DNA of 53,716 nt from a virus, in the IMG/VR virus record IMGVR_UViG_3300050821_002543, positions 1-53,716 of that record, one strand, 5' to 3'. Both the position numbers and the translations under genes were made by a program. The first letter of the stretch is position 1. Every line of letters starts with the position of its first letter. This document shows positions 1,096 to 52,440 of the stretch, piece after piece. The notes beneath the pieces were generated by a model that saw only the letters and a program-made list of their open reading frames with translations, had not been told where the DNA came from and searched no databases.

Positions 1096-1141
1096 CTGAG
1101 TTCTTTCACTTAGTTCACAGTTTCTCGACTCTTTAGATGAA

Positions 1142-1208
1142 GGGTTGAGTGTTTACAACCGAAGCTCTCTGGTATAATTAGAGAGATAGGAAAGTGAACA
1201 CTCAACTC
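1142..1208 (+). repeat. Nested inverted repeat downstream of the capsid gene
   Basis: Outer arms of 15 nt (1142-1156 and 1194-1208, 13 of 15 paired, core TTGAGTGTT/AACACTCAA) enclose an inner perfect 6-bp stem (CTCTCT 1165-1170, AGAGAG 1180-1185) whose loop contains TATAAT. As RNA it would fold into one long hairpin directly after the capsid gene. There is no T-run, so it is not an ordinary intrinsic terminator; mRNA-end stabilisation, RNase processing or a protein-binding site are possible. Confidence 0.6.
1152..1178 (+). promoter_or_regulatory. Possible sigma70-like promoter inside the inverted repeat
   Basis: TTTACA (1152-1157) and a consensus TATAAT (1173-1178) are separated by 15 bp, shorter than the usual 17. 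It would drive the short ORF at 1233 and perhaps the tRNA. Since the box lies in the loop of an inverted repeat it could instead be a chance match. Confidence 0.3.
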
Positions 1209-1232
1209 TCTCATCACGTTTAGGAGTCGAAT

Positions 1233-6294: not shown

Positions 6295-6326
6295 CATACT
6301 AGTTAGCTAGAACGATTGGACCAAGG
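6295..6326 (+). promoter_or_regulatory. Rearranged promoter-like element, copy 3
   Basis: CATACTAGTTAGCTAG (6295-6310) closely resembles the TATACT-box half of the copy at 2643, but its single ACCAAGG box (6320-6326) lies downstream instead of upstream. It sits in a 98-bp gap before the gene at 6368. It may be a degenerate promoter or operator. Confidence 0.4.
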
Positions 6327-11539: not shown

Positions 11540-12199
11540 GTGGCTTATAGTCAACAAAATCTCGCTCATTTTGTACAGATATGCACAACAGAAACAACTT
11601 CGGTTGCTAGTCCTCTAAACACCAACGCCTTCACTAATAGTAACACGAAGGGCAACACTATAGTTGCCCTTTTGATGAACAGAGGAAGTATACTAGCCTT
11701 TAAGACTCCAACTGACCACTTAGGGAACAAGTACAACCCTATTCCTACGGCGACTGGTCTTTCGAGGATAGGTTCTGGTATTCAAATCTCTGCTTTCGTA
11801 GCTTGGAATATAGTTGCTGGAAGCGGAAACTTTCTTTCTGTTAGTTGGACCGGTGCAAGTGGAAGCTTTCTTGGTTTCTATCTGTTTGAAGTATCTGGTG
11901 TTACCGCTGTGGCACCCTCTAATACTAATGCTAATACGAGCTCAACAGCCAATGCTGGCAATATTTGGATGCCAGCTCCTGGGATTATATTAGGGGGAAC
12001 TATCAGTGCTAGCTCTGCTACTTCTCCCGGAACTGGTTACACATCCATACCGATAACGTCTGAGTTTAACACCATCATGGAGTACGGACTTTTTGGTGTA
12101 GGACTCCAACCAGCTACAATCAATCTTGGTTCTTCTGGTGTTTGGGGTATGAGTGCAGTTGGTCTTTACACTCCAATTTCAGTGCCAAAGTACTTCTAA
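11540..12199 (+). CDS. Beta-rich virion protein, unknown
   Basis: 219 residues, GTG start two bases after the previous stop. Composition and spacing suggest a jelly-roll or lectin-like beta sandwich (IVALLMNRGSILAFKTPTD, FLSVSWTGASGSFLGFYLFE, EYGLFGVGLQPATINLG), a fold seen in phage surface proteins; this is inference. It shares its final base with the ATG of the repeat protein at 12199 (TAATG). Confidence 0.62.
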   Translation: MAYSQQNLAHFVQICTTETTSVASPLNTNAFTNSNTKGNTIVALLMNRGSILAFKTPTDHLGNKYNPIPTATGLSRIGSGIQISAFVAWNIVAGSGNFLSVSWTGASGSFLGFYLFEVSGVTAVAPSNTNANTSSTANAGNIWMPAPGIILGGTISASSATSPGTGYTSIPITSEFNTIMEYGLFGVGLQPATINLGSSGVWGMSAVGLYTPISVPKYF

Positions 12200-14133
12200 T
12201 GTTTGGTAGTCATGCCCTACTTCTCTGGTCGGGTAATACAGCTATCAATGTTGTAGCAAACCTACCAGGTATTGGTTCTGACGAAGTGTTTGCTGGAGCT
12301 TTGATGACCTACCAGACTCCTGCTTCTGCTGGCATAGGTAGTGAAGAAGTACTAGTAGAGGCTTCAACAACGTTTCTAACCAGCACTTCAGGCATTGACT
12401 CAAACGAAGTCCTGGGTGTAGATACCTCAGGATACAGTATTACTTTAACAGGAATCGATAGCTCCGAAGTTCTAGCCAAACAGTCTTCGACCTTTGGTTC
12501 TAGTATATCCGGTATCGACAGCACTGAGAGCATTGGAAAAGGGACAAGTACATTTGGTTCAACGATTTTTGGCATAGATAGTGGGGAAGCAATTGGAGCA
12601 GAGACGGGTAATAGAAGTTCGACGATCTCAGGTATAGACAGTTCTGAGGTTATCGGTAAAGGAACGAGTGCTCTTGGTTCCACTATTCCAGGTGTAGATA
12701 GTGCTGAGGCTATTAGCAAATCGACAACATCTTACAGCGGTATTGGAGCTGGAATAGACAGCTCAGAGGTTATCGGTAAAGGTACAACTTCCTACAGTGT
12801 GACTATTTCTGGTATAGACAGTTCTGAGACTATCGGAGCTGAAACTGCTGAACCATCTTTTACTATAACAGGAATTGACAGTTCAGAGGTAGTTGGTAAG
12901 GTTCAAGGCTCCCAATCTGTGAGTCTGTTTGGCATACCTAGCTCCGAAATCGTAGGCTCTGAAACAGGTACTCAATTCTCGCAACCTTCAGGAATTTCTA
13001 GCACAGAGATTATTGGTGAAGAAACAGGTGAGCCTAGTTTCACTCTGACAGGAATTGGTAGCGACGAAATCCTAGGTAAAGAGCAAGGTTCCCAGTCTGG
13101 AACAATATACGGTATTTCCAGTTCTGAGACGATTGGCTCAGAAACAGGTACTCTAGCTTCTAGTTCCGCAGGAATACCTAGTGCAGAGATCCTCGGACAA
13201 GAAACTGGAATTCAGACGAGTTTGGGATCTCCAGCAGGCATCGACAGCTCCGAAGTTCTAGCTAAAGTATCGACTACAATTGTCATTCAACCTTATGGTG
13301 TGGCTAGCGAAGAGGTTCTTGCACAGGCTTTAACATCCAGAGGTTCGTCACTCAAGGGTATTGACAGTTCTGAAGGGTTTAGTAAGTTTACATCAGGTAG
13401 TGCAACAGCAGCCACACCAGCTGGCATTGATAGTCCAGAAACGTTAGGTAAGGTAACCTCGTCTACCACAGTATCAGTATCAGGTATTTCTAGTGCAGAA
13501 GTTGTTGCAGAGGCTTCTTCCGTCATCGTAGCTAGTCAGTCTGGTATCTCGAGTTCTGAGTCTGTTGGTAAAGAGACCGCCTCTCAGAGCGGTAGGCTCT
13601 CAGGTATCTCCAGTGCTGAATCTGTCGGAGAAGAAACAAGTACGCAATTTGGAAACCTTTCTGGAATTTCTAGTTCTGAGGTAGTTGGACAAGAAACGAT
13701 TGCCACGATTGGATCTCTGTCTGGTATCTCCAGCACAGAGATTATCAGTCCAACTCAAACCTATCAGAGTGGTCACCTTGCTGGAATTTCTAGTTCTGAG
13801 GTTGTCGGTTCAGTAACCTCTCTAGTAACTGTGACAGTTTCTGGTATTGATAGCGACGAAGTTCTATCTCGGTCTCTCACTACCTTTGGAGCTTCGTTCT
13901 ACGGAATCGTTACTACAGAAGTTCTAGGAGAGTTCACTACTTCGTTTACGATTCCGATCATACCAGCACCGACTATACCGATTGAGAAAAGGTTTGTCCA
14001 GGGTAGATTTTACAAAGGAACGTCTGAAGACAAACCTTTTGCTTTTAGTCGATTTACCAAATCTAACTCGAGTGATAGTCCGGTAGTAACGATAAAGTTT
14101 GTGAAACCCAAGGGTCCGACTCAAAAGAAATAA
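12199..14133 (+). CDS. Repeat protein of 28 x 20-residue units
   Basis: Start taken at ATG 12199, overlapping the previous stop; an in-frame ATG at 12142 lies inside the preceding gene and lacks a ribosome site. After 23 residues come 28 tandem units of mostly exactly 20 residues with consensus GI-(D/S)-S-x-E-(V/I)-(V/L/I)-G-K/E-x-T, ending near residue 588. A basic C-terminal domain follows (RFVQGRFYKG, PVVTIKFVKPKG). The pattern is like the G-I-x-S-A-E-A-F-G repeats of actinophage tail proteins. A uniform 20-residue period suggests a solenoid or stacked fibre; role unknown. Confidence 0.8.
   Translation: MFGSHALLLWSGNTAINVVANLPGIGSDEVFAGALMTYQTPASAGIGSEEVLVEASTTFLTSTSGIDSNEVLGVDTSGYSITLTGIDSSEVLAKQSSTFGSSISGIDSTESIGKGTSTFGSTIFGIDSGEAIGAETGNRSSTISGIDSSEVIGKGTSALGSTIPGVDSAEAISKSTTSYSGIGAGIDSSEVIGKGTTSYSVTISGIDSSETIGAETAEPSFTITGIDSSEVVGKVQGSQSVSLFGIPSSEIVGSETGTQFSQPSGISSTEIIGEETGEPSFTLTGIGSDEILGKEQGSQSGTIYGISSSETIGSETGTLASSSAGIPSAEILGQETGIQTSLGSPAGIDSSEVLAKVSTTIVIQPYGVASEEVLAQALTSRGSSLKGIDSSEGFSKFTSGSATAATPAGIDSPETLGKVTSSTTVSVSGISSAEVVAEASSVIVASQSGISSSESVGKETASQSGRLSGISSAESVGEETSTQFGNLSGISSSEVVGQETIATIGSLSGISSTEIISPTQTYQSGHLAGISSSEVVGSVTSLVTVTVSGIDSDEVLSRSLTTFGASFYGIVTTEVLGEFTTSFTIPIIPAPTIPIEKRFVQGRFYKGTSEDKPFAFSRFTKSNSSDSPVVTIKFVKPKGPTQKK
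12268..13962 (+). repeat. Tandem 60-bp coding repeat array (28 units)
   Basis: The array encodes the 20-residue units. Units at the DNA level are diverged in the variable half but keep blocks such as GGTAT-(A/T)-GACAG(T/C)TCTGAGG. 25 units are 60 bp; unit 1 is 63 bp and two units (16 and 19) are 66 bp because of two extra residues. Such an array can expand or contract by recombination. Confidence 0.85.
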
Positions 14134-14135
14134 CC

Positions 14136-15179
14136 ATGGCTAGTCAGAGAAGAGTGATACCAGCCTTTTGGGGTCGAGACCTTAGAACTCGCGTTAAAGA
14201 AGAATTCACACTAGAGAAAACTAGAGCCCTTCTCCAAGACCAACTCGGAGGAGGGGGACTTCGAGCTTATCTCTGGAAGAGTGTTTTTGATCCTAGGAAC
14301 GCTGTTGAACCTTTAGTAGCTCCAGCAGGAACCATTAGATGCTCATGTGTTAAAGCAACAGGTCAATCTTCTGATCGGCGTTGCTTGAGTTGTCATGGTA
14401 TTACGTTCATACCAGGCTATCAAAAGTTTGGCTATGAAACCATCTGGTTCGCAAGCATCTCGTCGAGTTTGACTTTGACGAATCTTGCTCTCAACCTAAT
14501 CGTAAAGCCAAATCGTTTAGAGCTTGTTGGATCAGCCTTAACTGGAACAGCTGAAACACCTGATATCCAATATATTCGAGTTGATCCTCTAGGAATCTGG
14601 GAAGCCATTTCGAATTACATTACGCGAGACGCAGTTAATTCATCTGTAACAACTCAGTTTAGTACTAATGGTGGAGTTACGTGGGCTCCTCTATCATCGT
14701 TACCTCAAGCCAATCCTCAGACTGGCAGGATTAGGTTTATGGTAACGATTACGAGGACGTCCTCTTCCATACCATCGCCATCGTGGGAAATTCTTCGGGC
14801 TAGGTTCTCTACTATACCATTCCAGGGTAGATTTGGACCATGGATTCTAGTGCTAAAGACAGTTCCGGCGAATCGTAACCTCCAAGAGTTACGAGGGATC
14901 ACTTTAGACGCTTCTCCAAATAACTTCTGGACAGCTCCATTGTCGTTCTTTGATACCTGCCTACCTGATCAGGGAGGAGTGGGAGGTCCTCTGGACAAGA
15001 GTCTTCTGATTATTGATCCAGCCTTTGTCCAATTCCTCGATGGTATACCTGAGTTGTTAGCTGCAGAACGTTGGTCGTGTACTAACCTTAGTTATTCCGA
15101 TCCGTTTGGTTATCTAACACGCCAATTTTTTCAAGCACGTTTGCAGCAACAGGAGGAGTTTACTGGACTCGTCTTCTGA
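14136..15179 (+). CDS. Virion protein with zinc-ribbon-like CxC...CxxC motif
   Basis: 347 residues. Around residue 70 is a motif IRCSCVKATGQSSDRRCLSC followed by HGITFIPGYQKFGY. Phage proteins of neck or baseplate type often carry a similar C-x-C, C-x2-C then GTGF-x-GGY block. A beta-rich region follows (LTLTNLALNLIVKPNRLELV) and a C-terminal domain with CLPDQGGVGGPLDKSLLIID. Adjacent to the tail-completion gene, it is probably a neck or tail-adaptor protein. Confidence 0.65.
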   Translation: MASQRRVIPAFWGRDLRTRVKEEFTLEKTRALLQDQLGGGGLRAYLWKSVFDPRNAVEPLVAPAGTIRCSCVKATGQSSDRRCLSCHGITFIPGYQKFGYETIWFASISSSLTLTNLALNLIVKPNRLELVGSALTGTAETPDIQYIRVDPLGIWEAISNYITRDAVNSSVTTQFSTNGGVTWAPLSSLPQANPQTGRIRFMVTITRTSSSIPSPSWEILRARFSTIPFQGRFGPWILVLKTVPANRNLQELRGITLDASPNNFWTAPLSFFDTCLPDQGGVGGPLDKSLLIIDPAFVQFLDGIPELLAAERWSCTNLSYSDPFGYLTRQFFQARLQQQEEFTGLVF

Positions 15180-17125: not shown

Positions 17126-19573
17126 ATGTCGTTTGACATATCAATTTACGTCGACCCCGGAGTGTACAGCCAAGAGGTTATCAACCCTAGCTCTTTAGCG
17201 CTGGGGCAACTTCCAACCCTACTGGCAGTTGTTGGTATCGCTCCTCGAGTAGCTGTAGTCTCTAATGAGGCTGTCATTCGAGGACAGGTGAACAACGAGG
17301 CTGTCACCTGGGCAGGTAGCAGTCCTCATACCTATACTACAACCAATGTCGCAACTCGGCGCCAAGCAGATACGACTCTGATTAAGACTACTGGCGGTCA
17401 GAATCAGACGATGCCGAACAATGCCTATCAATGGTTACCAGCCTCTATCACAGGGTTGACTGGACCATTTGACATTGTCTCAGGTTCATTCATCACTCTC
17501 GAACTTGACGGTAACGAGTTTATCTCGATTGCGTTGACTGCTGGTTCTACTCGAACAGCAACTCAAGTTGCAGCAGACATCAATACTGCATTAGCTGCTT
17601 CTCCAGCGTACGGAGTCGCCTATAATGCAGTAGCTACGGCAGTAGCTGGTGCAATCGTCATCACCTCTCCACAGACGATACCAGCAAATTCTGATCTTCG
17701 ATTCATTGCTACTCCACCAGACACTGTTGGATACGTTGGTGATGATTTCACGTTAGTCTTCGGTCACACCAATCCCTACATTGCACAGTCAACACTCCAA
17801 CTGTTCGATTCGTTCTACCTAGGAACGGATACGTACATCATTGACTATGTTGCAGTGAACACCCTCTTGGATGCTCTCCAGAACACTCCAGTGGTGTCTC
17901 TCACTAAGGTTGGTCTTTACGCCAACGTAACGAGTTTTCAACCTACCATCGATTATCAGTTGACGAGTAACAACGTTGACTGGACTCCGAATGTAGAGGG
18001 AGTTGTTACTGGACTTGTTGGTCCATATAACACTTCGGTCAATAATGTCCTCCAGATGGCTCTAAACGGATTGGCAGTTATTACTGTTACTCTGACAAGT
18101 AGTGCTACTCTTGCAGCTTCGGCAGTTGCTGCATCTATCAATGCCGCACTTCTTGCTCAACCAGTCTATGGACCACTCTATGGTAATGTGGCCACTGTTG
18201 TCGGAGGAGCTGTAGTTATTACTCTACCATCTCCGTTTGACGACTTGCCAGTTGCTCAGGGTGTCAATAGCACAATTGAGTTCTACTCGGTTCCAGCCAA
18301 TGCTGTTACGACTGTCTTTGGAATTGCTCTAACGGCTCTTCCATTCCAACAGACTGGTTCTGCTAATCAGCCAGTGGTCGGAGCAACGTACTTTGCTTCG
18401 TACACCTATACTCGTCCAACATCGGCCTACAACAATGTCAGTGAAGTGACGAACCTGTTCTTTAATCCACAGGACTGTTTGGCATATACTGGTCCGATCA
18501 CGGAAGTGAACTTTGCGGATAACACGCTAGGAATTGCTTCGTCTATTGCGTTCCAAAACAATGCACCTAGACTTTTGCTAGTCCAGGTAAATGATTCAAC
18601 GACTCCAGGGTTCCCAACCATCAACGAAGTCAAAGCTGCGATTGATGCTTGTGTGAACAACTCGGACATCACTGATCTTGTTGTCCTTGATACTCGATTG
18701 GCTGTTCAAACCTATTTGCTAACTCACGTTACGAATGAATCTAGCATTACGGAGAAGAACTATCGTCGAGGTTGGTACGGTATGGCTCAAAATACTGCTG
18801 TTGGTGATATCGATAGTCCAGGAACTTTCGTCTATGCTGCTCAGGTTACTCTTCAGGTTCCTCCTGATTCTCCAGGACGAGGACGTTCGATTATTTCCGC
18901 TCCATCTAACGTTTCGTCTGACATTACTTTCGCAGATGGTACCGATCAGATCATCCCTCTTGATTCGACCTACCTGGGAGTTGCTTGCGCAGCTTTGATG
19001 ACCAGTTTCATCAATCTTGCAACTTCTCTGTTGCGAAAGACAATCGTAGGGTTTGACATTCCGAGCTTCCAGACCTATCAGAAGGCAGAGCGAAGGATGC
19101 TGGCCTCGAATGGAGTTAACGTGGTTACGGTTGAAGGAGGACAGTTCGTTCTCACTGACCCGGTGACTACTGAGCAGGGTGCTGGGAACCTTCGAGAGTT
19201 TACTGAAATCAATGCTATGGTTCAGAAGGACAATACTACCAGGACTGTTGACCAGACGCTCAACACGAACGTGGTTGGCATTGTTCCAAGCGATCTTGCA
19301 GATTTCATCAACGACATCAAGGGGTTCATCAGTCTGGCTCTAACCTCTCTGATTGCAGCTGGTGACATTGGTCCGTATGTCGATGCGAATGGTAATACTC
19401 GAGACATCAATCTGCAGACAGATATGCAGGTGTTCCAGTCACCAACGGATCCGACGCAGTTCATATTCAGGTATTTCTACAACTTGCGGTACGTTGCGAA
19501 GCGGTTGTTTGGAGACTATTCGGTCGACAATCCCTTCTTCCAAACGTCACCTAATCAGACTGCTACAGCTTGA
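17126..19573 (+). CDS. Contractile tail sheath protein
   Basis: 815 residues. The N terminus SFDISIYVDPGVYSQEVINP matches the sheath-family opening (PGVY-x-x-E), and the C-terminal half has the conserved sheath core (RGWYGMAQNT, later NVVTVEGGQFVLTDPVTTEQ, NLREFTEINAMVQKDN, and a final helix-strand part with DFINDIKGFISLAL). It polymerises around the tail tube and contracts during infection. Two related inserted domains, about residues 108-205 and 293-400 (both starting TGL-x-GP(F/Y) and including AA-x-(D/S)INXAL-x-x-xPxYG), enlarge it beyond a minimal sheath; they probably decorate the tail surface. Tail tube follows after a short gap. Confidence 0.92.
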   Translation: MSFDISIYVDPGVYSQEVINPSSLALGQLPTLLAVVGIAPRVAVVSNEAVIRGQVNNEAVTWAGSSPHTYTTTNVATRRQADTTLIKTTGGQNQTMPNNAYQWLPASITGLTGPFDIVSGSFITLELDGNEFISIALTAGSTRTATQVAADINTALAASPAYGVAYNAVATAVAGAIVITSPQTIPANSDLRFIATPPDTVGYVGDDFTLVFGHTNPYIAQSTLQLFDSFYLGTDTYIIDYVAVNTLLDALQNTPVVSLTKVGLYANVTSFQPTIDYQLTSNNVDWTPNVEGVVTGLVGPYNTSVNNVLQMALNGLAVITVTLTSSATLAASAVAASINAALLAQPVYGPLYGNVATVVGGAVVITLPSPFDDLPVAQGVNSTIEFYSVPANAVTTVFGIALTALPFQQTGSANQPVVGATYFASYTYTRPTSAYNNVSEVTNLFFNPQDCLAYTGPITEVNFADNTLGIASSIAFQNNAPRLLLVQVNDSTTPGFPTINEVKAAIDACVNNSDITDLVVLDTRLAVQTYLLTHVTNESSITEKNYRRGWYGMAQNTAVGDIDSPGTFVYAAQVTLQVPPDSPGRGRSIISAPSNVSSDITFADGTDQIIPLDSTYLGVACAALMTSFINLATSLLRKTIVGFDIPSFQTYQKAERRMLASNGVNVVTVEGGQFVLTDPVTTEQGAGNLREFTEINAMVQKDNTTRTVDQTLNTNVVGIVPSDLADFINDIKGFISLALTSLIAAGDIGPYVDANGNTRDINLQTDMQVFQSPTDPTQFIFRYFYNLRYVAKRLFGDYSVDNPFFQTSPNQTATA

Positions 19574-19687: not shown

Positions 19688-20140
19688 ATGCCAACTAATC
19701 CTCCGAATACCTTGGTTCGCACTAGCCACGCACTCACAATTCGAGCCAGTGGTATCACAGTTGGAGTAATTCAGAGCTGGGGTCCTGGCCAGAACCGTGG
19801 AGTTACGGGCATCTATGAAATCAACGTAGATACTTCCGGTGAACCTATCGAGAAGGTTCCTGGAAACGTAGGTGGCCTTACTATCCAGGTCTCTCGTTAT
19901 GACCTCTATTCTAGGCGAATGGAGGCTGCATTCGGAACTCCGGATGTTGAGATGCTTGGGAGTCAGGCTAATCCATTCCAAGTTCTTGAGCTCTGGAGGT
20001 TCCCAGACAATACTCAGGAAGGTCGAGTATATACGGGTTGTTGGTTTAGCAACATCGGTCGTACCTACAGTGCTACCGATGCCAGACTAGTACTTGTAAA
20101 TGCAACCATCGAGTACACTCGTCGTCTACGCACAATCTAG
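19688..20140 (+). CDS. Tail tube protein
   Basis: 150 residues directly after the sheath, the usual place and size for the tube subunit. The sequence (ALTIRASGITVGVIQSW, RGVTGIYEINVDTSGEPIEK, then LTIQVSRYDLYSRRME and VLELWRFPDNTQEGRVYTGC) is typical of the T4 gp19-like tube fold of large myoviruses, where the subunits form stacked hexameric rings. The predicted lipoprotein gene begins 8 nt after its stop, with a GGAGA ribosome site. Confidence 0.85.
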   Translation: MPTNPPNTLVRTSHALTIRASGITVGVIQSWGPGQNRGVTGIYEINVDTSGEPIEKVPGNVGGLTIQVSRYDLYSRRMEAAFGTPDVEMLGSQANPFQVLELWRFPDNTQEGRVYTGCWFSNIGRTYSATDARLVLVNATIEYTRRLRTI

Positions 20141-20148
20141 GAGATGTC

Positions 20149-20604
20149 ATGAAATTGTTGACTGTTTTGGTTTTGGTGATTGGAGCTCTGACGTGCTCGG
20201 GTTGCTCCCTACTTTCGCAGGCACAGCAGAATCCTATTGCTTTTGAACAGCAAGTTATTCAAGACACTGAGTTGGCTATTGACGCTGCTCAGGTAGTCTT
20301 CGCTACATTCTTGCCTTCTCTGGGAGCTGCTGGACCTGCAGATCAGACGAAGTTTAATGCCTTGCTTACTGATGTTCAGAACGCAGAGCAGGTATTGGCT
20401 GATGCTGCAACTACAGTTCTTCAGTCGGGATCTAGCGTCGACTTGACCCAGTTGATGGCCAACTTGACAACGACGGTTGATGCCCTCGAAACCTTTATCA
20501 ATGGGTTGAAGAGTTCGGCTGCTAATACGGTTGTACCTAATGCTCTAGACAATGTGGTTATCACACTTCACAAAGTGGTAGCAACCTATCGTAAGCCTAG
20601 TTGA
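20149..20604 (+). CDS. Predicted phage-encoded lipoprotein
   Basis: 151 residues with start MKLLTVLVLVIGALTCSGCS: a lysine, a hydrophobic core and a lipobox-like C-S-G-C, so signal peptidase II processing at Cys19 is likely, though Cys rather than Leu at -3 is atypical. The mature part is helical with Ala/Gln-rich heptads (FEQQVIQDTELAIDAAQVVF, TDVQNAEQVLADAATTVL), suggesting a helical bundle. A lipoprotein inside the tail operon is unusual; a superinfection-exclusion or membrane role is possible. ATG is preceded by AGGAGAT. The compound promoter starts at its stop codon. Confidence 0.75.
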   Translation: MKLLTVLVLVIGALTCSGCSLLSQAQQNPIAFEQQVIQDTELAIDAAQVVFATFLPSLGAAGPADQTKFNALLTDVQNAEQVLADAATTVLQSGSSVDLTQLMANLTTTVDALETFINGLKSSAANTVVPNALDNVVITLHKVVATYRKPS

Positions 20605-20642
20605 ACCAGAGGCTAACCAAGGTTCATAGAGCTTAGTATACT
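20604..20642 (+). promoter_or_regulatory. Compound phage promoter-like element, copy 4
   Basis: AACCAGAG (20604-20611) and AACCAAGG (20615-20622) are 11 bp apart, then 14 bp, then TATACT (20637-20642), with TATAGCT next. The predicted start would be near 20649. It begins at the last base of the lipoprotein gene and precedes the structured RNA and the tail-chaperone operon. Confidence 0.68.
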
Positions 20643-20648
20643 ATATAG

Positions 20649-20760
20649 CTTTGCACCAGATAGTGAAATTACGTCTGGTACAATAAGTAGAGAATCTCCG
20701 AGTAGCAACCTGCTACGATGACGGATTCTAGGGAGCGACGTAAAGTCAGCTCCCTTTTTT
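20649..20760 (+). ncRNA. Structured short RNA or attenuated leader with three hairpins
   Basis: From the predicted start after TATACT to a terminator T-run, about 112 nt contain no ORF and three stacked hairpins. Hairpin 1: ACCAGA (20655-20660) with TCTGGT (20674-20679). Hairpin 2: an outer AGAATC (20691-20696)/GATTCT (20724-20729) pair enclosing GTAGCA (20702-20707)/TGCTAC (20711-20716). Hairpin 3 is the terminator. This layout fits either a small phage RNA or a leader that controls read-through into the tail chaperone and tape-measure genes. No known riboswitch class is recognised. Ends are inferred. Confidence 0.6.
20731..20760 (+). terminator. Intrinsic terminator upstream of the tail chaperone gene
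   Basis: GGGAGC (20731-20736) pairs with GCTCCC (20749-20754), followed by six T. It lies between promoter copy 4 and the chaperone gene, so it either ends a small RNA or acts as an attenuator. Confidence 0.88.
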
Positions 20761-20785
20761 GTGTTCATCCGTTAGGAGATTGGAT

Positions 20786-21358
20786 ATGGCGAAAGAAACT
20801 GATAAGGCTAAGAAGCAGGGAGCTCTATCCCTGCTTGATGATTTGGCTAAAGAGTTGGACGAAGGACGTCTTGAAGGGACGTTCGAGGTTCGAGGTATAT
20901 TCTGGAAGATGCAGTTGCTCCAGGATCATGAAGTCAACTGGGCAAACGGTTTTCAGAGAACCAACTCTACTTTGTCTATGCTGACCTCTCGTAGGGCTCC
21001 TACGTTAGCCATTGGCATTAGAGCAATCGGTAAGAGTGAAGATACCATGAAGTCTGTTCGTCAGTATTTCATGGACGAGTGGGAAGCCGAACGTGGTGAA
21101 CTTGATGCTACGGTTAAAGCTATTCTGGATAATGCCAACGAGTATATTCAGCAGTACTGGTTTGCGGAGCAACTCTTCAAGTGGCTTTCGGTTAGACCAC
21201 CAGAATTTGTCTCCGCCCTCTGGGTGAAGTGGCAATCTCTTGAGGAGAGGAGGACCGAAGCCGAGAAGGCCATGGGAAAATCCTCAGTGGAGGATGGGAC
21301 CTTGTCGAAGACTCCTCCGACCCCTTCCTCAGTACCATCCGCTCAGACAGCGACCTGA
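20786..21358 (+). CDS. Tail assembly chaperone, G-type (short frame)
   Basis: 190 residues; the start at 20786 is chosen for its AGGAG (20774-20778), although the frame is open upstream. Located between tail tube and tape-measure genes, the fixed position of tail chaperones. The product is soluble, alpha-helical and charged (ALSLLDDLAKELDEGR, VKAILDNANEYIQQYWFAEQLF), with no phage capsid signature. Near its 3' end the slippery sequence GGGAAAA (21274-21280) allows a -1 shift into the overlapping open frame, as in lambda G/GT. The non-shifted tail is short and Pro/Ser/Thr-rich. The terminator just upstream may limit its transcription. Confidence 0.8.
   Translation: MAKETDKAKKQGALSLLDDLAKELDEGRLEGTFEVRGIFWKMQLLQDHEVNWANGFQRTNSTLSMLTSRRAPTLAIGIRAIGKSEDTMKSVRQYFMDEWEAERGELDATVKAILDNANEYIQQYWFAEQLFKWLSVRPPEFVSALWVKWQSLEERRTEAEKAMGKSSVEDGTLSKTPPTPSSVPSAQTAT
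21274..21280 (+). other. Programmed -1 frameshift slippery heptamer
   Basis: Zero-frame codons are ATG GGA AAA TCC, so the site is G GGA AAA, an X-XXY-YYZ heptamer differing from the lambda G/GT site (GGGAAAG) only in the last base. The -1 frame is open from 21244, past the heptamer, to 22044. Downstream, TCCTC (21281-21285) can pair with GAGGA (21290-21294); further on, GGAGGA and TCCTCC could also pair. A purine-rich AGGAGG lies upstream. Confidence 0.82.
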
Positions 21359-21417
21359 ATTGGCGCTGGCAACAACTCAAGATCAAGGCTAGAGTATGTT
21401 CTGAGAAGCATCTCCTA

Positions 21418-22044
21418 ATGTCGGACCCTCGTTTAAAACACATGACGAGAGTTCGATGGCTTTGGGAAGCTTGGCAATTGAAGTTGAAGGAAGACGCTGA
21501 AGTTACTCGCATTAACAAAACTGGTGAGCAATCCTTCAAGGCTTTTCGAGATATTCTATGCTCTATTCTTGGTACGAATTTGGAACCGATTACACAGTCT
21601 GATGGTACGGTTCGATGGCCAACAGAGGGTGAGTTTACACCGTTGATTTATGCTATTGCACGACCTGACTATCTGAAGTCTGCAATGGAGAAGATCAATA
21701 ACCTAGTAGCAGGTCAGTCGGGTCCTGATCCAGTTGATCCTGAGGCAGAGGGTGGTTACACCGAAGACGATCTTCAATTCTTCGATGAATTGCCTGTTGA
21801 CACTAAGAAAGCTTTCTGGGATAGTCCAGAAATGAAGTCGCAATTGCGACAACTCGTTATCCAGAAAGATCCGAGAACTGTCAATCCGTACGATAAGAAG
21901 CAACCTAAACCTCTAGGTCTTGACGCAGAGTTCGTTAAGCAAATGCAAGAGGAAGACGAGAACTTCGGTCGAAAGAAGAAAGCCAGAATGGAACTTCTGG
22001 AAGAAGACGATATTGACTTTCCACCTGGGTTTGGTATGAAATGA
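21418..22044 (+). CDS. Tail assembly chaperone, T part of a G-T fusion
   Basis: The open frame runs from 21244 to 22044; the ATG at 21418 has only a weak ribosome site. The frame is -1 relative to the upstream gene, and after the slip at 21280 it would add 254 residues to the first 165, a 419-residue fusion. Such G-T fusions bind the tape-measure protein and recruit tube subunits. The T part is helical and acidic (PRLKHMTRVRWLWEAWQL, then a C-terminal lysine/arginine cluster FGRKKKARMELLEEDDID). It overlaps the first tape-measure ATG by 4 nt. Independent initiation at 21418 cannot be excluded. Confidence 0.72.
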   Translation: MSDPRLKHMTRVRWLWEAWQLKLKEDAEVTRINKTGEQSFKAFRDILCSILGTNLEPITQSDGTVRWPTEGEFTPLIYAIARPDYLKSAMEKINNLVAGQSGPDPVDPEAEGGYTEDDLQFFDELPVDTKKAFWDSPEMKSQLRQLVIQKDPRTVNPYDKKQPKPLGLDAEFVKQMQEEDENFGRKKKARMELLEEDDIDFPPGFGMK

Positions 22045-24374
22045 CACTTGGCGCTGATATAACGATCGAGGGTATTGAGGAAGCCTCTTCATCCGTTACG
22101 GAACTGGGAAAGGCAGTAGAGAATCTCGATCCTATAGCTGAGCGTATGAGTAAGATCTTGCAAAACATGGAAGGTTCGCTTTCCATGTTGACACAAGAGA
22201 TTGAGAAACACCAAACCCAGGTAGAGCAACTCGCCAACAAAAGTCAACAACAAGACAAAACAAATCGTTCGGAAGAAGCTGAACGACGCCAAGAAGCTGA
22301 AGAACGTAGACTTCGTGCCAAGATGGCACAACTTGTTGGTGGTGGTGTTAACTCTGCGCAGTACCAAATCCAACTGGAAAAAGTACAAGCTCAGATGGAC
22401 GCCATTCGTGAGGCAGAGGCTAAAGGGCTTATTACTAGTAGAGAGTCTCTACTAGCTGTCGCAGGTCTTGGTAAGGAGTATCTGAAGCTGAAGACGGAGG
22501 CAATTGCTTACAGTGCTGCTGGAGGTGGAGCTGTAGGTAGGATTGCAGCTGCTGGAGCTCAGAAGATTACAAGTCTTCCAGGTCAAGCTGTAGGTGCAGT
22601 AGGTTCTCAGGTCTCAGGTATCGGATCTGGTGTTATGGGTCTGATGTCTTCCTTACCCATCGCTGGAGGACTCTTTGGTTTGATGATGTACGGTGTTATG
22701 AACACCGATCGTATCAAAGCAGAGACTGGCGAGATAATGAACATCGTTGCTTCCGCTACTGGAGGTATGTCTGATACTGCTGTGAAATTTCTAGGAGATT
22801 TTCAACAGCAGGCCTCTCATCTTTGGGGCATTCAGAAAGGTGAAATTCAGTCTGTTCTTAAGACCTTTACTGATGCTGGTCTAACAGCCAACACCATTAT
22901 GACGCAGCAAAAGGCAAATCTAGGTATTGTGGGTCATGATATCATGACCCTAACGTTAGCCTTAGACAAGAATTTCGAACTAGCCACTGGTTCAAGTGCC
23001 CGATCCGTAGTAGCGTTAACGAACGACTTTGGTATGGGTATCAAGGAGGCTGGTGATCTGTATGAGAGAATGGCATTTGCAGGTTCTAGATCTGGAATGG
23101 GAGTACAGAATTTCCTAAACTACGTAATGCAAGGTTCTAGTGCTTTGCGTCAATACGGAGTTTCGGTTGAACAGGTTGAAACCACCTTACTCACGATTCA
23201 AGAACGATATGAATCGTTGGGGATGACCAAACAACTGGCTGGAAATCAGGCTGGACTTGCTCTTGGTCAGATCTCACAAGGTATTGGTGGTATGAGTCAA
23301 TCTATGCAAGCCTACTTTGGCGAGCGTATGGGATTAGGAACTGGTCTAGAAGCTAGAATGAATTTCCGTGATGGGATGTCAAGGTTGAGTAAAGGGACGG
23401 CCTCTGATACCTTTATGACCTCCTTCATTGAACAGGCATATAGAACTGCTATGGAATCAGGTGGTGGTGACAAACCACAAGCTCGATTCCTACTCGAAAA
23501 TCAGGGGTTTGGAGCCGAAGGAGCTAAAGCTATTATTGAGATTGGTGATAAAGTCGCCCATGGTGTGAAATTCCACGAATTGTCCGCTGCTGAACAGAAG
23601 GCTATCAAAGAGTCTTTGACAACTGAAGGTCAGAAGACTAGTGATATACAGAAGGACATTTGGAAGATCATGCAGGGGATGGCTCAAGTTGGTGAAGGTA
23701 TCCTACAAGTTATCACCAATATGGTGGCTTGGGGTGTTATGGGTCTGAAGAGTATCATAACTCTCATTGCAGGAACTCCAGAAGAGAAAAAGCACATCAT
23801 GGAAGTGCTTGGTGAGTTTTCTAAGGGAATGGGAGAGGGCTTCAATAAGATTACAGATGGGGGTAAGAACAGTTTATATGGAGTTGGAGGACTCCTAGAA
23901 CCGATCTTTAAGCCACTTCAAAGAGCAATGGAATTCGATCCATTGAAGACAGAATCAGAACAGCAATTTGCTACTGGAGCCAAAGGTGCTGAGCATGCTA
24001 AGCATGCTTTAGAAAGTACTTGGAGCAAGGTTGATAAAAACTTCAAGAACCTCCCTCCAGAAGAAAAGAAGAAGCGAATTCAACTCATGATTCAGCATAT
24101 GCATGAGAAGAAGGAGATGGAGGATATCACCTCCAAGTTGGGGAATGAAGGGATTGACTTTAAACCTGATCTAGGTTCTCCTCAAGGTCCTCCACCACTA
24201 CCTCAGGTCACTCCAGCAGCTTCTCAAGTCTCTCAACAGCAAGCCATTACAGCTGGAGTTTCAAATCCGTTTGGTGGAAGTCCTACTCCAGCAGGTACAG
24301 TTACGAAGGTAATCGTGAAGGTCAAACCTGACCAAACGGGTCCAACAACTCCTCGCCCTATGACTGGTCACTAA
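22041..24374 (+). CDS. Tape-measure-like protein 1 of 3
   Basis: 777 residues, starting in the chaperone stop (ATGA). The first 150 residues are a charged coiled coil (EKHQTQVEQLANKSQQQDK). A hydrophobic segment (GVMGLMSSLPIAGGLFGLMM) follows, then a region conserved in all three paralogues: DRIKAETGEIMNIV, a FTDAGLTANTIMTQQ stretch, GHDIMTLTLALDKNFEL. A second hydrophobic helix (ILQVITNMVAWGVMGLKSII) and a Pro-rich tail end the protein. In myoviruses the tape measure sets tail length and carries membrane-active segments. Position after the G/GT chaperone makes the call. Having three is unusual. Confidence 0.78.
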   Translation: MTLGADITIEGIEEASSSVTELGKAVENLDPIAERMSKILQNMEGSLSMLTQEIEKHQTQVEQLANKSQQQDKTNRSEEAERRQEAEERRLRAKMAQLVGGGVNSAQYQIQLEKVQAQMDAIREAEAKGLITSRESLLAVAGLGKEYLKLKTEAIAYSAAGGGAVGRIAAAGAQKITSLPGQAVGAVGSQVSGIGSGVMGLMSSLPIAGGLFGLMMYGVMNTDRIKAETGEIMNIVASATGGMSDTAVKFLGDFQQQASHLWGIQKGEIQSVLKTFTDAGLTANTIMTQQKANLGIVGHDIMTLTLALDKNFELATGSSARSVVALTNDFGMGIKEAGDLYERMAFAGSRSGMGVQNFLNYVMQGSSALRQYGVSVEQVETTLLTIQERYESLGMTKQLAGNQAGLALGQISQGIGGMSQSMQAYFGERMGLGTGLEARMNFRDGMSRLSKGTASDTFMTSFIEQAYRTAMESGGGDKPQARFLLENQGFGAEGAKAIIEIGDKVAHGVKFHELSAAEQKAIKESLTTEGQKTSDIQKDIWKIMQGMAQVGEGILQVITNMVAWGVMGLKSIITLIAGTPEEKKHIMEVLGEFSKGMGEGFNKITDGGKNSLYGVGGLLEPIFKPLQRAMEFDPLKTESEQQFATGAKGAEHAKHALESTWSKVDKNFKNLPPEEKKKRIQLMIQHMHEKKEMEDITSKLGNEGIDFKPDLGSPQGPPPLPQVTPAASQVSQQQAITAGVSNPFGGSPTPAGTVTKVIVKVKPDQTGPTTPRPMTGH

Positions 24375-24375
24375 T

Positions 24376-25161
24376 ATGGTAGCTCCTGATTTAGCAACTG
24401 CATTCGGTGTTTCCAATCTACTAAAGAGGGGCAATGGAACCGCTATTCGAACAGCGATGGAGATGTCTTGTCTCCTATGGAGAGCTCAGAACCTACCCTC
24501 TCTGAAAATGATGGTTAACCCTCACTCTGTTACTTTCAACCAACCAAAGCGCATTACAAAGAAAAATACACAGGGTGGAACTGTTTACACCCATTGGACT
24601 GATCTAAATGGTCAGAACAATGACATTTTGGAGCTTCAGTTTAAGGGACGCTCTGGAAACATTCGACAACAACCAGATCCAGCCAAAACTGGAATTCTTC
24701 AAAGTGTTGCTAACGGTTTGCAATTAGGAGCTAATGCTCTTACTGGCACTACTGGGGACATGAATACGCCAACTCCCAATCAGGGATTAGCAAAACACAT
24801 AGCTTGGTCTCAGTTGTATCAGTTGACTAGGTTACCAGTTGTAGATCCAGCGACTCGACTAAGGAATGTCTTCGATATCACTTACATCAGTCCGATACTT
24901 CCTAGGCCAGTAGTGTTTCTGGGGTTTTACAATAACGTGCTGAATTTTACGGAAGACGCTGATCGGCCATGGCTGATTGAGTACAGTTACAGTTTCATTG
25001 TACAATCAACTCAACCGTCTCTTGATACTCTCACTCAGATGCTAACCCAACTTCTAAACAGTTCGGCTACAGGATTGGCTGCGTCTGAGATTACAACTTC
25101 TCAAGCCCAACAGTCTTCAACTACTGGAGCTGTTACTGGTGCGAACTTTAAGCAGGGATGA
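24376..25161 (+). CDS. Baseplate-hub or tail-interior structural protein
   Basis: 261 residues between tape-measure paralogues 1 and 2. Residues 45-95 contain NPHSVTFNQPKRITKKNTQG then TVYTHWTDLNGQNNDILELQ and FKGRSGNI, similar to phage hub or tail-adaptor proteins in which a N-P-x-S-x-x-x-x-x-x-K-R-I-T-K segment starts a beta domain. The C-terminal half continues in the same style (GFYNNVLNFTEDADRPWLIE) and ends in a Ser/Thr/Gln-rich tail. It probably belongs to the hub rather than the tape measure. Its stop overlaps the next ATG (ATGA). Confidence 0.62.
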   Translation: MVAPDLATAFGVSNLLKRGNGTAIRTAMEMSCLLWRAQNLPSLKMMVNPHSVTFNQPKRITKKNTQGGTVYTHWTDLNGQNNDILELQFKGRSGNIRQQPDPAKTGILQSVANGLQLGANALTGTTGDMNTPTPNQGLAKHIAWSQLYQLTRLPVVDPATRLRNVFDITYISPILPRPVVFLGFYNNVLNFTEDADRPWLIEYSYSFIVQSTQPSLDTLTQMLTQLLNSSATGLAASEITTSQAQQSSTTGAVTGANFKQG

Positions 25162-27338
25162 AGTCAGTCAATCTACCTACTGAACGATTTCATAGAGCCG
25201 TCACTTGGCTTGGTGAGGCCATCACTAAGTTCAATTCTTCTGAAGAAGGATTGAAAGAGTCGTTAGACGGTCTTAAAGAATCCATTCAATTACAGGATGA
25301 GGTCTCTAAACCGAGCAAGGATGAAGAAGCTCTGATATTCGTAATGGAGCAGAAGAGCGCCTTAGTTAAGGCATCCTCGAGTGTTGGTAAGTTGGCTCCA
25401 CTCCTTGAGGGAACTGAACTAATACCTGGTTTTACGAAGAACAGTGCTTCGGCCTACATTGAACTTCAGAAAGCTCATAAAGATCTTCTTGAGATGCAAG
25501 AAGCTGTTGCTTTAGGCATCATTGACGAAAGGGAGGCTTCAACTGACCTAAAGAAGCTACGTAAATCTCTCGGTATTGCTCAAAGGAAAGCTGAAGGTCT
25601 TCCTGAGGGTGTAGATATGGGAGACGACCTACAAAAGGGTTCTGGCTCTTCTTCTTTGTCAGGTGTAAGCTCTCTCGTTAAAAGTGGTCTTCAAGCCCTT
25701 GGAGGTCAAGTTGGTGGAATAGCCACTGGTTCAATTGGTCTCCTTGGATCCTTACCAGTTGTTGGAGGCCTCTTTGGGTTAATGCTATACGGATTCAAAG
25801 AACGCGATAGAATGAAAGCCCAACTTGGTGAGTTAACCAATATCGCAATTGGAGCAGGAGCAAAGGGTACAGAAGAAGGTGTATCGTGGTTAGCTGGTTT
25901 TCAAGAGCGATCTCAAAACTTCTACGGTATTAGTCGCCAGTCTATTCAAGGCATCTTCAAGACTTTCACGGATGCAGGTATGGCTGTTAATGATATTTTC
26001 AAGCAGCAATCTGCCTCATTAGGTGAAGTTGGTCATGATGCTGTAACTATGACCCTAGGTATGGATCGTGTATTTGAGTTGGGTAATGGAACCACAGCTC
26101 GAAATGCAGCAAAGATCATGAGTTCATACGGTGTTAGTCTAAGTTCGGCTATTGACAGTCTTGTCAATATTGAGTTTGCCGCCAGTAAAGCTGGGTTTGG
26201 AGTAAACACGTTTCTCAATTGGTTGATGCAATCAACCATGCAAGTTCGTAACCTAGGTATTACTACTGATCAGATGGCTGATGCTGCTCTTGAAATGCAG
26301 AGAAAGATGTCTGAGGAGGGTTTTAGTCATTCTCAGACATGGGCAATGCAATCAGTTGGAGAAGCTGCTCAAGGCTTAGCCAATATGGGTACAGGTCGCC
26401 AAATCTGGATGGCAGAAGAGTTAGGTCTTGGAAAGGGTTTGGCTGGTCGACAAAATCTGATGCAAGGGTTTCAAGAAGACCGACCTGAACTCTTTGCAAA
26501 AGCAGCTGGTCTTTATCGAAAAGAAGCCATGCAAGCCACAGGTGGAGATCAGGATGCTTCTTTATTCTATTTGGAACGCTTAGGATTTGGGTTTCAGGGT
26601 GCTAAGGCTATTCTCCACTTAGGTGAGATGGAAGAGAAGGGACTTAAGATCGAGATAGCTAGCTCAGCAGATAAGAAGGCTCTTCGTGAGGCTTTTCAAG
26701 TTGAAGGTAAGAAGAAGAGTAGTATCGGAGAGATGATAAGGGATGCTACTTTAGGTATGGCTAAGATAGGTCAAGGTATCCTTGTTATGCTTTCCAATTT
26801 TTTGGGTTGGATTATTACCTCAGTCAAAGCTATTCCCGTTTTGATGAGTGTAGGTACTCCTGAGCAGAAGCAGATCGTTTACAAGGAACTTGGGGAACGG
26901 TTTGATGGTATGGCTATGGGTTGGAACGATATCCGTATGGGAGGGAAACAAGCTTATGCTGGTATGGCAGGAATAATCAAACCGCTCCTCGCTCCGATTG
27001 ATAAGGCATTCAATTACAAGATGGGTAGCTCTCATCTCGAGAGCAGGGATCCGATTGAGGTTGATATTGAGTCTTTACCAATGGTTGACTCTCCCCCAGG
27101 TCATCAATCTACTCAGGTAGGATTTACTCCTAAGGGTAAACCTCTAAACCCTCATACTAGTTCGGCTTCTGGACCTTCACCTCAAAGTCCAACTTCTACT
27201 GGCGCACCAAATCACTCTTCAACTCCACCACACGGTACGAAAACGTCGTTCTTTGATCCGAAACATGTTCAGGTTATCTGGGCTCCTGGAGCTGATCGAG
27301 CAGATCACCTAACGGTTGAAATTTCTGTAACTACATGA
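25158..27338 (+). CDS. Tape-measure-like protein 2 of 3
   Basis: 726 residues, paralogous to the 22041 product. Shared landmarks in the same order: coiled-coil N terminus, hydrophobic GSIGLLGSLPVVGGLFGLML, DRMKAQLGELTNIA, then KTFTDAGMAVNDIFKQQSA, GHDAVTMTLGMDRVFEL, and LGLGKGLAGRQNLMQGF, a second membrane-type helix (ILVMLSNFLGWIITSVKAI) and a Pro/Ser-rich C terminus. Divergence between copies is large, so the duplication is old. No lytic domain is seen. It overlaps both neighbours by 4 nt, making a translationally coupled block. Confidence 0.76.
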   Translation: MKSVNLPTERFHRAVTWLGEAITKFNSSEEGLKESLDGLKESIQLQDEVSKPSKDEEALIFVMEQKSALVKASSSVGKLAPLLEGTELIPGFTKNSASAYIELQKAHKDLLEMQEAVALGIIDEREASTDLKKLRKSLGIAQRKAEGLPEGVDMGDDLQKGSGSSSLSGVSSLVKSGLQALGGQVGGIATGSIGLLGSLPVVGGLFGLMLYGFKERDRMKAQLGELTNIAIGAGAKGTEEGVSWLAGFQERSQNFYGISRQSIQGIFKTFTDAGMAVNDIFKQQSASLGEVGHDAVTMTLGMDRVFELGNGTTARNAAKIMSSYGVSLSSAIDSLVNIEFAASKAGFGVNTFLNWLMQSTMQVRNLGITTDQMADAALEMQRKMSEEGFSHSQTWAMQSVGEAAQGLANMGTGRQIWMAEELGLGKGLAGRQNLMQGFQEDRPELFAKAAGLYRKEAMQATGGDQDASLFYLERLGFGFQGAKAILHLGEMEEKGLKIEIASSADKKALREAFQVEGKKKSSIGEMIRDATLGMAKIGQGILVMLSNFLGWIITSVKAIPVLMSVGTPEQKQIVYKELGERFDGMAMGWNDIRMGGKQAYAGMAGIIKPLLAPIDKAFNYKMGSSHLESRDPIEVDIESLPMVDSPPGHQSTQVGFTPKGKPLNPHTSSASGPSPQSPTSTGAPNHSSTPPHGTKTSFFDPKHVQVIWAPGADRADHLTVEISVTT

Positions 27339-30064
27339 AAGCGATTACTCAAACAAATAACTTGGGAGAAGCGATTAGCTTCTTCAACCTCAAGGCAGAT
27401 AGGCTTGAGAAGGTGTTTGAGGAAGCTAAGAAGTATTCTAAGACTCTCACAGAGATGAGGGTTCAAATTCGTGATTTGAAGAAACGTCCTCTTCCTCCTG
27501 ATGGGCCTGAGGAAGGTATGGGTGGTTATTCTGCTGAAGAAATTCGCTTTCTAGAAGAGATAGAAGCAAAATCAAGAGGGTTGTCTATCTCAGCAGGAGT
27601 AGAGACCTTATCAACCGATTTGGCTAGAGTGTCTCTCCAATTGGCGGAGATAGACGAGTCATTTTCTCGAGGAATCATCACAGAAAAAGAACATAAACAT
27701 GCTCTCGAAAAAGTAAAGGTTGAGTGGGAGCATATCCATGAGACTACCACAAGCCTTTTGGGAGTAGATTTACGACCATCCCATTTGGCTAAGGAAGGGG
27801 CGTCGAAAATTGGTTCTGGAGCTTTGGGTCAACTAACAGGAGTTGCTTCAGGTGTAATGGGATTGATGTCCTCTTTACCAATTGCTGGAGGACTCTTTGG
27901 TCTTCTCATGTATGGGTATTCTCAAGCCGATAGACTAAAAGCAGAATCAGGAGAGATGTTGAACGTTCTCGTTTCAGGAGGCCAAGCAACGTCCCAACCA
28001 TTCCTAAATCATCTTTCGGGACTCGGAGAGAAATTTCAACAGTTCTATGGCATCAGTCGTCGAGAGGTTCAAGGAATTGTCAAGGAGTTCATCTCTGGAG
28101 GGGCTACGATTGAAGATTTGATGCAAACAACACACCGAAATCTTGGTGAAGTAGGACAAGATGTTGTTACAATGACAATTGGTCTTGACAAGATGTTCGA
28201 ACTTGCGTCAGGAAGTTCAGCGAAGTTAGCCCAAGCCTTAGTAGAAGATCATGGAGTGAAACTAGGAACAGCAGTTGATCAGTTGATTCGAATAGAGTTT
28301 GCTGGCAGTCGTGCTGGAGCAGGTGTTGGAACCTTCACTGAATTCGTGGTTAAGACAGCTGGAGAGCTACAGAATTTTGGAATCGGAGGAGAATCTGTAG
28401 CAGCAAGTCTCGTTTCTCTTCAAGAACGCTATCATACCGTAGCTGGTTTGAATGTCCAAACATCGATAGCCTATGCCCAACTGGGTATGAGTCAAGTAAG
28501 TCAAGGAGTTCAAGGTCTGAATTTTGGATTAAAATCAACTGTTGGTGAGTTGATGGGTTACGGTACTGGATTTGGAGCTGCTACTGGTTTACAGGATGCT
28601 ATTGCTTCCAATGATCCGAATCAGTTAGTTAAGCTAATAAAAGCTTTGAACACTCTGGCTGCTAGAGAAACAGAAGGTACCGGAGGAAGTTCCAATGATA
28701 CCATTAGACAAAGGGCTTATTTAGAGTCAATTGGAATGGGTGCAGAAGGTGCTCGAGCTTTGACTGAGTTAGCCAAATTACACGGAGGAAGGTCCAATCT
28801 ACAAAATCTCACTGCGAAAGAGCTAGCTGAGTTTAGGGAGACCCTAAAGACAGAAGCTCAGAAGCAGAGTGAGATGACCCAAAACATTCATGAGGTACTT
28901 AAGGGAATGGCTGGAATGGGTCAATCCATTCTCAAACTTGCTGCTGACTTTGCCGGACTTTTGATTGTAACCATCAAAGGTATGATGGCGACCGAAGCTC
29001 TGGATTGGATGGGGCATCTTGGTAAGGCAGCTGCAGATGGAATTGTTAGTACGTTCAAAGATTTGACAGGGTGGGATCTATCAGATAAAACAGCACCATT
29101 CAAAGCTAAGACCGATGTGGATAAGGCTGTTCAAGGACAATTCGATTTCTATCTCAAATCAATTAGCGGAGATTTCTCGGACTTACTAAAGGGTACATCT
29201 CAAGTTGGAACTGGAATCAGCAAAGTAGCTCTCCCATTGATAACACCGATTGTACATGCCTTCAAAGAAATGGGAGTACCCTCCGATTGGGCAGATCCGC
29301 AAGCTTCGACTCCAGAATCGAGAACTCGTTCTGAGAAGGGACCACATTACGCAGCCCCAGAAGGACCTAAGCAAACTCAAAGCGGAGACTTCTGGACACA
29401 ATTTGTTGTTATGAGCAATCGACTAGGAGTTAAGCCAGAAGAATTACTGAAGGTGTTTAACTCGGAAAGCGGATTCAATTCTCATACTGTTGCATATCGA
29501 GATTCCCACGGCAGGGCAACTAAGAAGGATGATCCAGACGCTCATGCTGTAGCCAAAGGTATTCAGCAGCTTACGTGGGAAACTGCTAGAGGATTAGGCA
29601 TGCCCAAGGAAGTATGGGACAACTTCGAGAACGTTAGTCCGCAAGAGCAACTAAAGTATGTTGAGCGATATTACTCGGGTAGAGCTGCTGGAAAGAATGC
29701 GGCTGAAATATATGCGATGAACTTCGGTGGATACAACAATCCGAATGGTTCTCTATATGACCGAGACGCTCGATCGAAAGGTTATCACAATCCAGGGTTT
29801 CAAGAGATCGCCTATCGATCTAATCAAGGATTGGATCGTGATCATAAAGGGTATATCACAGCAGAGGACCTTGCTCGAAATCTCTCAAAGGTTAGTGCCT
29901 CTCAGCAGGCAGCTTTAACCAAAGTTCGCCACACTTTGGGAATGTCAGAAACAGGTAAAGCTATTCCTGATCCATTAGATCCAGTTTTAGTAGCTGAGGT
30001 TAAGGCTACCAAAACTTCGGCAGGAGTCAACCAAGTGACACTATCTTTGGAGGTTCACCAGTGA
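27335..30064 (+). CDS. Tape-measure-like protein 3 of 3 with lytic-transglycosylase-like domain
   Basis: 909 residues. The first ~640 match the other two copies (GVMGLMSSLPIAGGLFGLLM, DRLKAESGEMLNVL, GQDVVTMTIGLDKMFEL). Residues about 684-820 are an added domain of soluble lytic transglycosylase type: VFNSESGFNSHT with a probable catalytic Glu711, AKGIQQLTWETARGLG, and MNFGGYNNPNGSLYDRDA. Then comes a Ca-binding EF-hand-like loop, DRDHKGYITAED at 834-845. The domain would cleave peptidoglycan during tail penetration. A promoter-like element follows the stop. Confidence 0.82.
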   Translation: MKAITQTNNLGEAISFFNLKADRLEKVFEEAKKYSKTLTEMRVQIRDLKKRPLPPDGPEEGMGGYSAEEIRFLEEIEAKSRGLSISAGVETLSTDLARVSLQLAEIDESFSRGIITEKEHKHALEKVKVEWEHIHETTTSLLGVDLRPSHLAKEGASKIGSGALGQLTGVASGVMGLMSSLPIAGGLFGLLMYGYSQADRLKAESGEMLNVLVSGGQATSQPFLNHLSGLGEKFQQFYGISRREVQGIVKEFISGGATIEDLMQTTHRNLGEVGQDVVTMTIGLDKMFELASGSSAKLAQALVEDHGVKLGTAVDQLIRIEFAGSRAGAGVGTFTEFVVKTAGELQNFGIGGESVAASLVSLQERYHTVAGLNVQTSIAYAQLGMSQVSQGVQGLNFGLKSTVGELMGYGTGFGAATGLQDAIASNDPNQLVKLIKALNTLAARETEGTGGSSNDTIRQRAYLESIGMGAEGARALTELAKLHGGRSNLQNLTAKELAEFRETLKTEAQKQSEMTQNIHEVLKGMAGMGQSILKLAADFAGLLIVTIKGMMATEALDWMGHLGKAAADGIVSTFKDLTGWDLSDKTAPFKAKTDVDKAVQGQFDFYLKSISGDFSDLLKGTSQVGTGISKVALPLITPIVHAFKEMGVPSDWADPQASTPESRTRSEKGPHYAAPEGPKQTQSGDFWTQFVVMSNRLGVKPEELLKVFNSESGFNSHTVAYRDSHGRATKKDDPDAHAVAKGIQQLTWETARGLGMPKEVWDNFENVSPQEQLKYVERYYSGRAAGKNAAEIYAMNFGGYNNPNGSLYDRDARSKGYHNPGFQEIAYRSNQGLDRDHKGYITAEDLARNLSKVSASQQAALTKVRHTLGMSETGKAIPDPLDPVLVAEVKATKTSAGVNQVTLSLEVHQ

Positions 30065-30077
30065 AACCTTCTGATAA

Positions 30078-52408: not shown

Positions 52409-52440
52409 GTAATATAGATAGCTACGTCAACCAACCAAAG
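52409..52440 (+). promoter_or_regulatory. Rearranged promoter-like element, copy 7
   Basis: An AT-rich AATATAGATAGCTAC (52411-52425) matches the downstream half of the compound element; AACCAACCAAAGG (52429-52441) follows rather than precedes it, as in copies 3 and 6. Confidence 0.38.

Follow-up and report, generated by a model that had tools for sequence, protein, structure and literature searches.

The stretch at 20649-20785 of a 53.7-kb virus record (the window), recovered as environmental DNA only from an uncultivated phage lineage, is a structured region that would form the 5' leader of a tail assembly chaperone/tape-measure transcription unit. We put at about one half the probability that a leaky intrinsic terminator in this leader lowers chaperone and tape-measure transcription below that of the tube and sheath genes, leaving an RNA of about 110 nt as a by-product. 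The leader is real and narrowly conserved, and it is probably a device of a known kind.

Gene order around the leader

The sheath has a relative, at 44% identity, in Virus Rctr197k (KX853510), and this together with 27 IMG/VR loci places the phage in a contractile-tailed lineage. A search for DNA relatives among 50,697 phage records found none. In the window the sheath gene (17126-19573) is followed by the tail tube gene (19688-20140; phrog_985, virion structural; 75% identical to that of the relative L005) and by a small lipoprotein-like gene with a lipobox (20149-20604, plus strand). The leader comes next, and then a G-like tail assembly chaperone gene (20786-21358), its GT-like extension in the -1 frame (21418-22044), both on the plus strand, and the tape-measure gene (22041-24374; phrog_1272). 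This order, including the lipoprotein gene, is common to the window, L005 and L004, the nearest relative. The lipoprotein-like gene keeps its place (13647-14114 in L005 and 12957-13427 in L004) at an identity of only about 30%.

The chaperone had zero matches in PHROG; it is named from its position between tube and tape measure and from its frameshift. A slippery GGGAAAA (G GGA AAA) lies near the end of the gene in all three phages (window 21274, L005 14792, L004 14091), and the -1 frame protein right after it is strongly conserved among them. The site is a predicted programmed frameshift like that of lambda G/GT, by which the extension would be entered. On the plus strand, a Shine-Dalgarno AGGAG (20774-20778) stands seven bases 5' of the chaperone ATG (20786-20788).

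Elsewhere in the window, three paralogous tape-measure-like genes (22041-24374, 25158-27338 and 27335-30064) have in common a stretch that is hydrophobic and rich in glycine (repeat D7), and several relatives likewise give three tape-measure-like matches. Gene 12142-14133 carries sixty-base periodic repeats at 12449-13932 and resembles a fibre- or adhesin-like repeat protein.

A promoter-like repeat and three hairpins

Just 5' of the leader lies a promoter-like repeat (20604-20649, plus strand), recognised from repeat families D15/D18, from PWM matches here and in G001, a 183-kb contig of L004, and from ortholog positions. It consists of a flank, AACCAGAGGCTAACCAAGGTTC (20604-20625), and a partly palindromic core, AGCTTAGTATACTATATAGC (20630-20649), within which a -10-like TATACT is found at 20637-20642. 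The family, AACC...GGCTAACCnAGGT with a TAGTATACTATATAGC-like core, occurs in the window at 1316, 2605, about 20599-20604 and 30072, and core-only copies are present at 6298 and 52415. G001 likewise contains the core, at about 21929, 51720, 85713, 91722, 117050, 141782 and 177545, where it twice adjoins orthologues of genes that neighbour the repeat in the window, those of 6368 and 30136. What a preliminary description had called promoter copy 4 is thus a member of a real repeat family, as the repeat search and the recurrence in G001 indicate, and we infer that transcription starts near 20649.

Overall the repeat is a dispersed intergenic element in which a palindromic core, AGCTA...TATAGCT, is accompanied by an asymmetric flank, AACC...GGTT. 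The window phage and G001 differ, for the orthologues of gene 30136, in which side of the core carries this flank. Within G001 the flank is found on either core side, though nearly all genes share one direction, so that the repeat may serve in part as an activator site or a bidirectional promoter. When IMG/VR was searched with the promoter pattern, the single match lay inside a coding sequence of an unrelated phage and was rejected. A conserved flank after the G001 cores, CAGGTTTACC, considered as a transcribed antitermination element, turned out to be the promoter flank in reverse complement, and the idea was dropped. Behind another copy of the repeat, a tRNA-Met gene (1442-1518) occupies the gap 3' of the major head protein gene.

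The interval 20649-20760 contains no ORF of its own. On the plus strand the leader is predicted to form hairpin H1 (ACCAGAUAGUGAAAUUACGUCUGGU, 20655-20679; -9.5 kcal/mol, z -3.3), hairpin H2 with a kink-turn-like internal loop (20691-20729; z -2.5) and hairpin H3 (GGGAGCGAC-GUAAA-GUCAGCUCCC, stem-loop 20730-20754; -16.4 kcal/mol). Six T at 20755-20760 stand directly 3' of H3, and together they make an intrinsic-terminator-like feature at 20730-20760. The predicted fold of 20649-20765 (117 nt) has an energy of -41.7 kcal/mol compared with -25.5 +/- 3.25 for shuffles (z -4.98; 0 of 200 as good), and H3 alone reaches z -5.4, equalled by none of 200 shuffles. Direct reading thus bears out the preliminary description, coordinates included, in its account of three hairpins, no ORF, a six-T end and a strong ribosome site after the promoter copy. 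H1 was also considered as an inverted copy of the promoter flank; a good match was obtained in just 1 of 12 flanks tested, which was not convincing.

H3 has the features of an intrinsic terminator, a G+C-rich stem of at least five pairs (GGGAGC/GCUCCC plus GAC/GUC) and a U-tract abutting it. Within the window the run TTTTTGTGTT is confined to two places (2595 and 20756), each right after a strong intergenic hairpin. The other of these hairpins (2560-2596) is terminator-like as well, lying 3' of gene 1643-2548 and 5' of a promoter copy. This suggests that H3 would stop transcription.

A strong hairpin directly followed by (CAT)CACGTTTA was seen in three phages (window 1141-1225, L005 14256-14301 and G001 107789-107830), and the 13 bases TCATCACGTTTAG at window 1211 recur unchanged at L005 14289. 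As a lineage-wide terminator signal, a hairpin plus ACGTTT showed no overall enrichment; it remains a lead.

A homologous leader in one relative

In the matching place L005 has a leader made of GUAUGGUAACAUAAGU, an H2-like hairpin with an identical CGAUGACGG and an abutting, perfect 13-bp H3. Local alignment of the two leaders scored 22, against 11.6 +/- 2.3 for dinucleotide shuffles, and 5 of 2,000 shuffles scored as high (2 of 2,000 with the ribosome site left out). Judged from sequence, the L005 leader is homologous to that of the window. The stretch they share is limited to nine bases of H2 (CGATGACGG) plus AUAAGU and short flanks. The H1 stem sequence is not conserved. For the apical stem of H2, GUAGC/GCUAC in the window corresponds to GCGU/ACGC in L005, so that three of the four shared pairs are doubly substituted and still paired, and H3 is likewise re-paired. 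The covariance check suggested in the preliminary description therefore did reveal compensatory changes, in one homologue. When alignments of the tape measure, the tube and the chaperone were used as queries, no further close relative appeared, and the covariation is therefore judged on two sequences, the window and L005.

The internal loop of H2 is built from GA (20700-20701), the apical stem (20702-20706/20712-20716), GAU (20717-20719) and GA (20720-20721). The resulting motif, GA...GAUGACGG, is identical in the window and L005, where it lies with CGATGACGG at the corresponding place (14229-14252). Known kink-turns include box C/D, Kt-7 and U4. H2 resembles a kink-turn in its three-base loop GAU, its G.A and A.G partners and a helix on either side; it differs at position 3b.3n, which is C.C in the window and U.C in L005, and the motif is predicted from its sequence pattern alone. 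That pattern (C stem, 3-nt loop, tandem G.A/A.G, NC stem) was found in both leaders, and its other matches in the scanned loci were isolated. Searching IMG/VR with the H2-motif pattern returned L005 and two unrelated G+C-rich contigs, one match lying inside a 706-aa ORF; those two fold differently and were discarded as chance.

L004 has no H2. Its 131-nt leader is unstructured (z +1.6), and the strong hairpin of L004/G001 lies upstream of the leader, right after the lipoprotein stop codon. The other, wider relatives have short gaps, most with a small hairpin, lacking a U-tract, just 5' of the chaperone ribosome site. On these comparisons the leader device is restricted to a lineage, in which two leaders have one motif in common.

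In the wider relatives an element of two hairpins, ACCCCGC-n-GCGGGAG followed by GGAGCGAAAGCYC (or by GGGUAAnACCC), was observed both 3' of the gene for the major head protein and at the ribosome site of the chaperone (L021 at 2284 and 13608, L008 at 2214 and 13604, and L007, L010, L013, L019, L024, L028, L029 and L030). It had zero matches in Rfam, and its hairpin I shows little countable covariation.

Possible roles of the leader

The position of H3 between high-copy (sheath, tube) and low-copy genes argues for a leaky terminator that steps transcription down. A strong hairpin is present in the tube/lipoprotein-to-chaperone junction of the three phages compared (the window; L005 14256-14290; G001 107789), and the junction 3' of the major head protein gene (high-copy; phrog_2522, E 1.5e-55) also has strong hairpins, at 1141-1210 in the window and at 85625 in G001, the latter with T5. 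RNA polymerase that started at the promoter-like late site (20604-20649), or came in from the upstream sheath-tube-lipoprotein genes, would transcribe H1 and H2 and then reach H3 and its U6, which would stop most but not all of it and release the RNA of about 110 nt. Translation of the read-through RNA, from AGGAG/ATG 20786, would give the chaperone, its frameshifted form and the tape measure, so that these low-copy proteins stay well below sheath and tube. We infer that termination is incomplete; the next promoter-like repeat is at 30072, and genes 20786-30064 therefore need read-through, unless a promoter that escaped detection is present in that interval. Against this reading, the H3 stem of L005 is followed by CATCACGTTTAG and not by a U-tract, and termination is therefore not conserved even where the leader is. 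In addition, the G001 hairpin precedes the leader and most wider relatives have no U-tract. Nor is the conservation of H2 explained by a plain terminator.

In lambda pR'-tR' (6S RNA) a terminator lies in the leader between promoter and gene, and the order promoter, terminator, late gene is found here too, with the promoter assigned by repeat and ortholog position only. Terminators of AlpA-controlled promoters begin 26-54 nt after the start (PMC7969949). Both resemble the present leader in having a terminator-like hairpin between promoter and gene; they differ in that no antiterminator or loading site was identified in the 53.7-kb window fragment. In listeriaphage CKA15, also contractile-tailed, an intrinsic termination site has been mapped between the tail tube and chaperone genes, and the chaperone operon has its own start site; the accessible part of that report mentions no promoter-then-terminator leader or H2-like motif, and the likeness is one of layout (PMC12282133). 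The preliminary description had found a terminator between a promoter and its gene odd, and these cases indicate that for phages it is not.

The same arrangement could instead be a regulated attenuator, in which a phage antiterminator (Q/AlpA-like, promoter-loaded) or a protein bound to H1/H2 permits passage of H3 only late in infection, as with lambda pR'-6S RNA-tR'. The promoter-terminator-gene order within about 110 nt, as in AlpA-controlled promoters (PMC7969949), is consistent with this, as are the retention of H2 with its GA/GAUGA loop in L005 despite changed stems and the promoter-like core at 52415, which is likewise followed by a strong hairpin 5' of the next gene. However, no antiterminator gene was identified in the window, a fragment with most of the genome outside it, the promoter copies at 2605 and 30072 have short leaders and no terminators, and the L005 leader has no U-tract, so we regard regulation of this kind as unlikely. 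Very unlikely, in our judgement, is that H2 acts as a kink-turn receptor, occupied by a ligand or by a protein (the chaperone, the tape measure or some other late protein of phage or host), and that its occupancy decides read-through of H3. If so, the state of tail assembly would feed back on chaperone and tape-measure synthesis. The preliminary description had raised such sensing of a ligand, protein or tail state; its structured leader with a terminator-like hairpin before the chaperone genes holds, but for sensing we found no riboswitch family match, no convincing state switch and no positive evidence beyond the conserved H2. Rfam 15 gave no match in the window at gathering score, and at E up to 5 the leader had chance-level matches only.

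The hairpins might also act on translation or mRNA stability, protecting the mRNA or tuning initiation next to the ribosome site, with U6 incidental. The absence of a U-tract in L005 fits this, and so does the wider family, which has hairpins rather than terminators here, mostly just 5' of the chaperone ribosome site and in many cases with GGAGCGAAAGCYC around. Within the window the ribosome site GGAGAUU (20775-20781) has a possible pairing partner in AAUCUCC (20693-20699), and the best fold of 20649-20785 hides that site with near certainty; for 20649-20840 the two states come to -69.0 and -68.0 kcal/mol. However, 15 more bases restore H2 and H3, and the probability of the site-hiding pairing drops to 0.2-0.4 with more 3' sequence. 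Ribosome-site accessibility (0.41) is not low among window genes, riboswitch-like sequestration of the site was rejected as no better than for other window genes, and the matching L005 alternative is 3 kcal/mol worse than the best L005 fold. We therefore doubt this explanation. A free small RNA acting in trans is highly improbable. A terminated RNA of about 110 nt would arise, and the layout equals that of IsrK of Gifsy-1, where a terminated short RNA and a read-through mRNA from one promoter coexist (PMC4825925). For the window leader, though, trans action is not evidenced: no target or seed was identified, and outside the nine H2 bases and short flanks L005 shows no conservation of the sequence, which is absent from L004 and the other relatives. 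The small RNA of the preliminary description is thus possible as a by-product, and nothing shows a trans function.

The principle of such a step-down is already known; for this particular leader, with its kink-turn-like hairpin, no description was found in the literature and databases searchable here. The GA...GAUGACGG hairpin is a small RNA motif absent from Rfam and a candidate for protein binding. The leader itself marks a specific site at which transcription in an uncultivated phage lineage appears to be stepped down from abundant tail-tube to scarce tape-measure genes.
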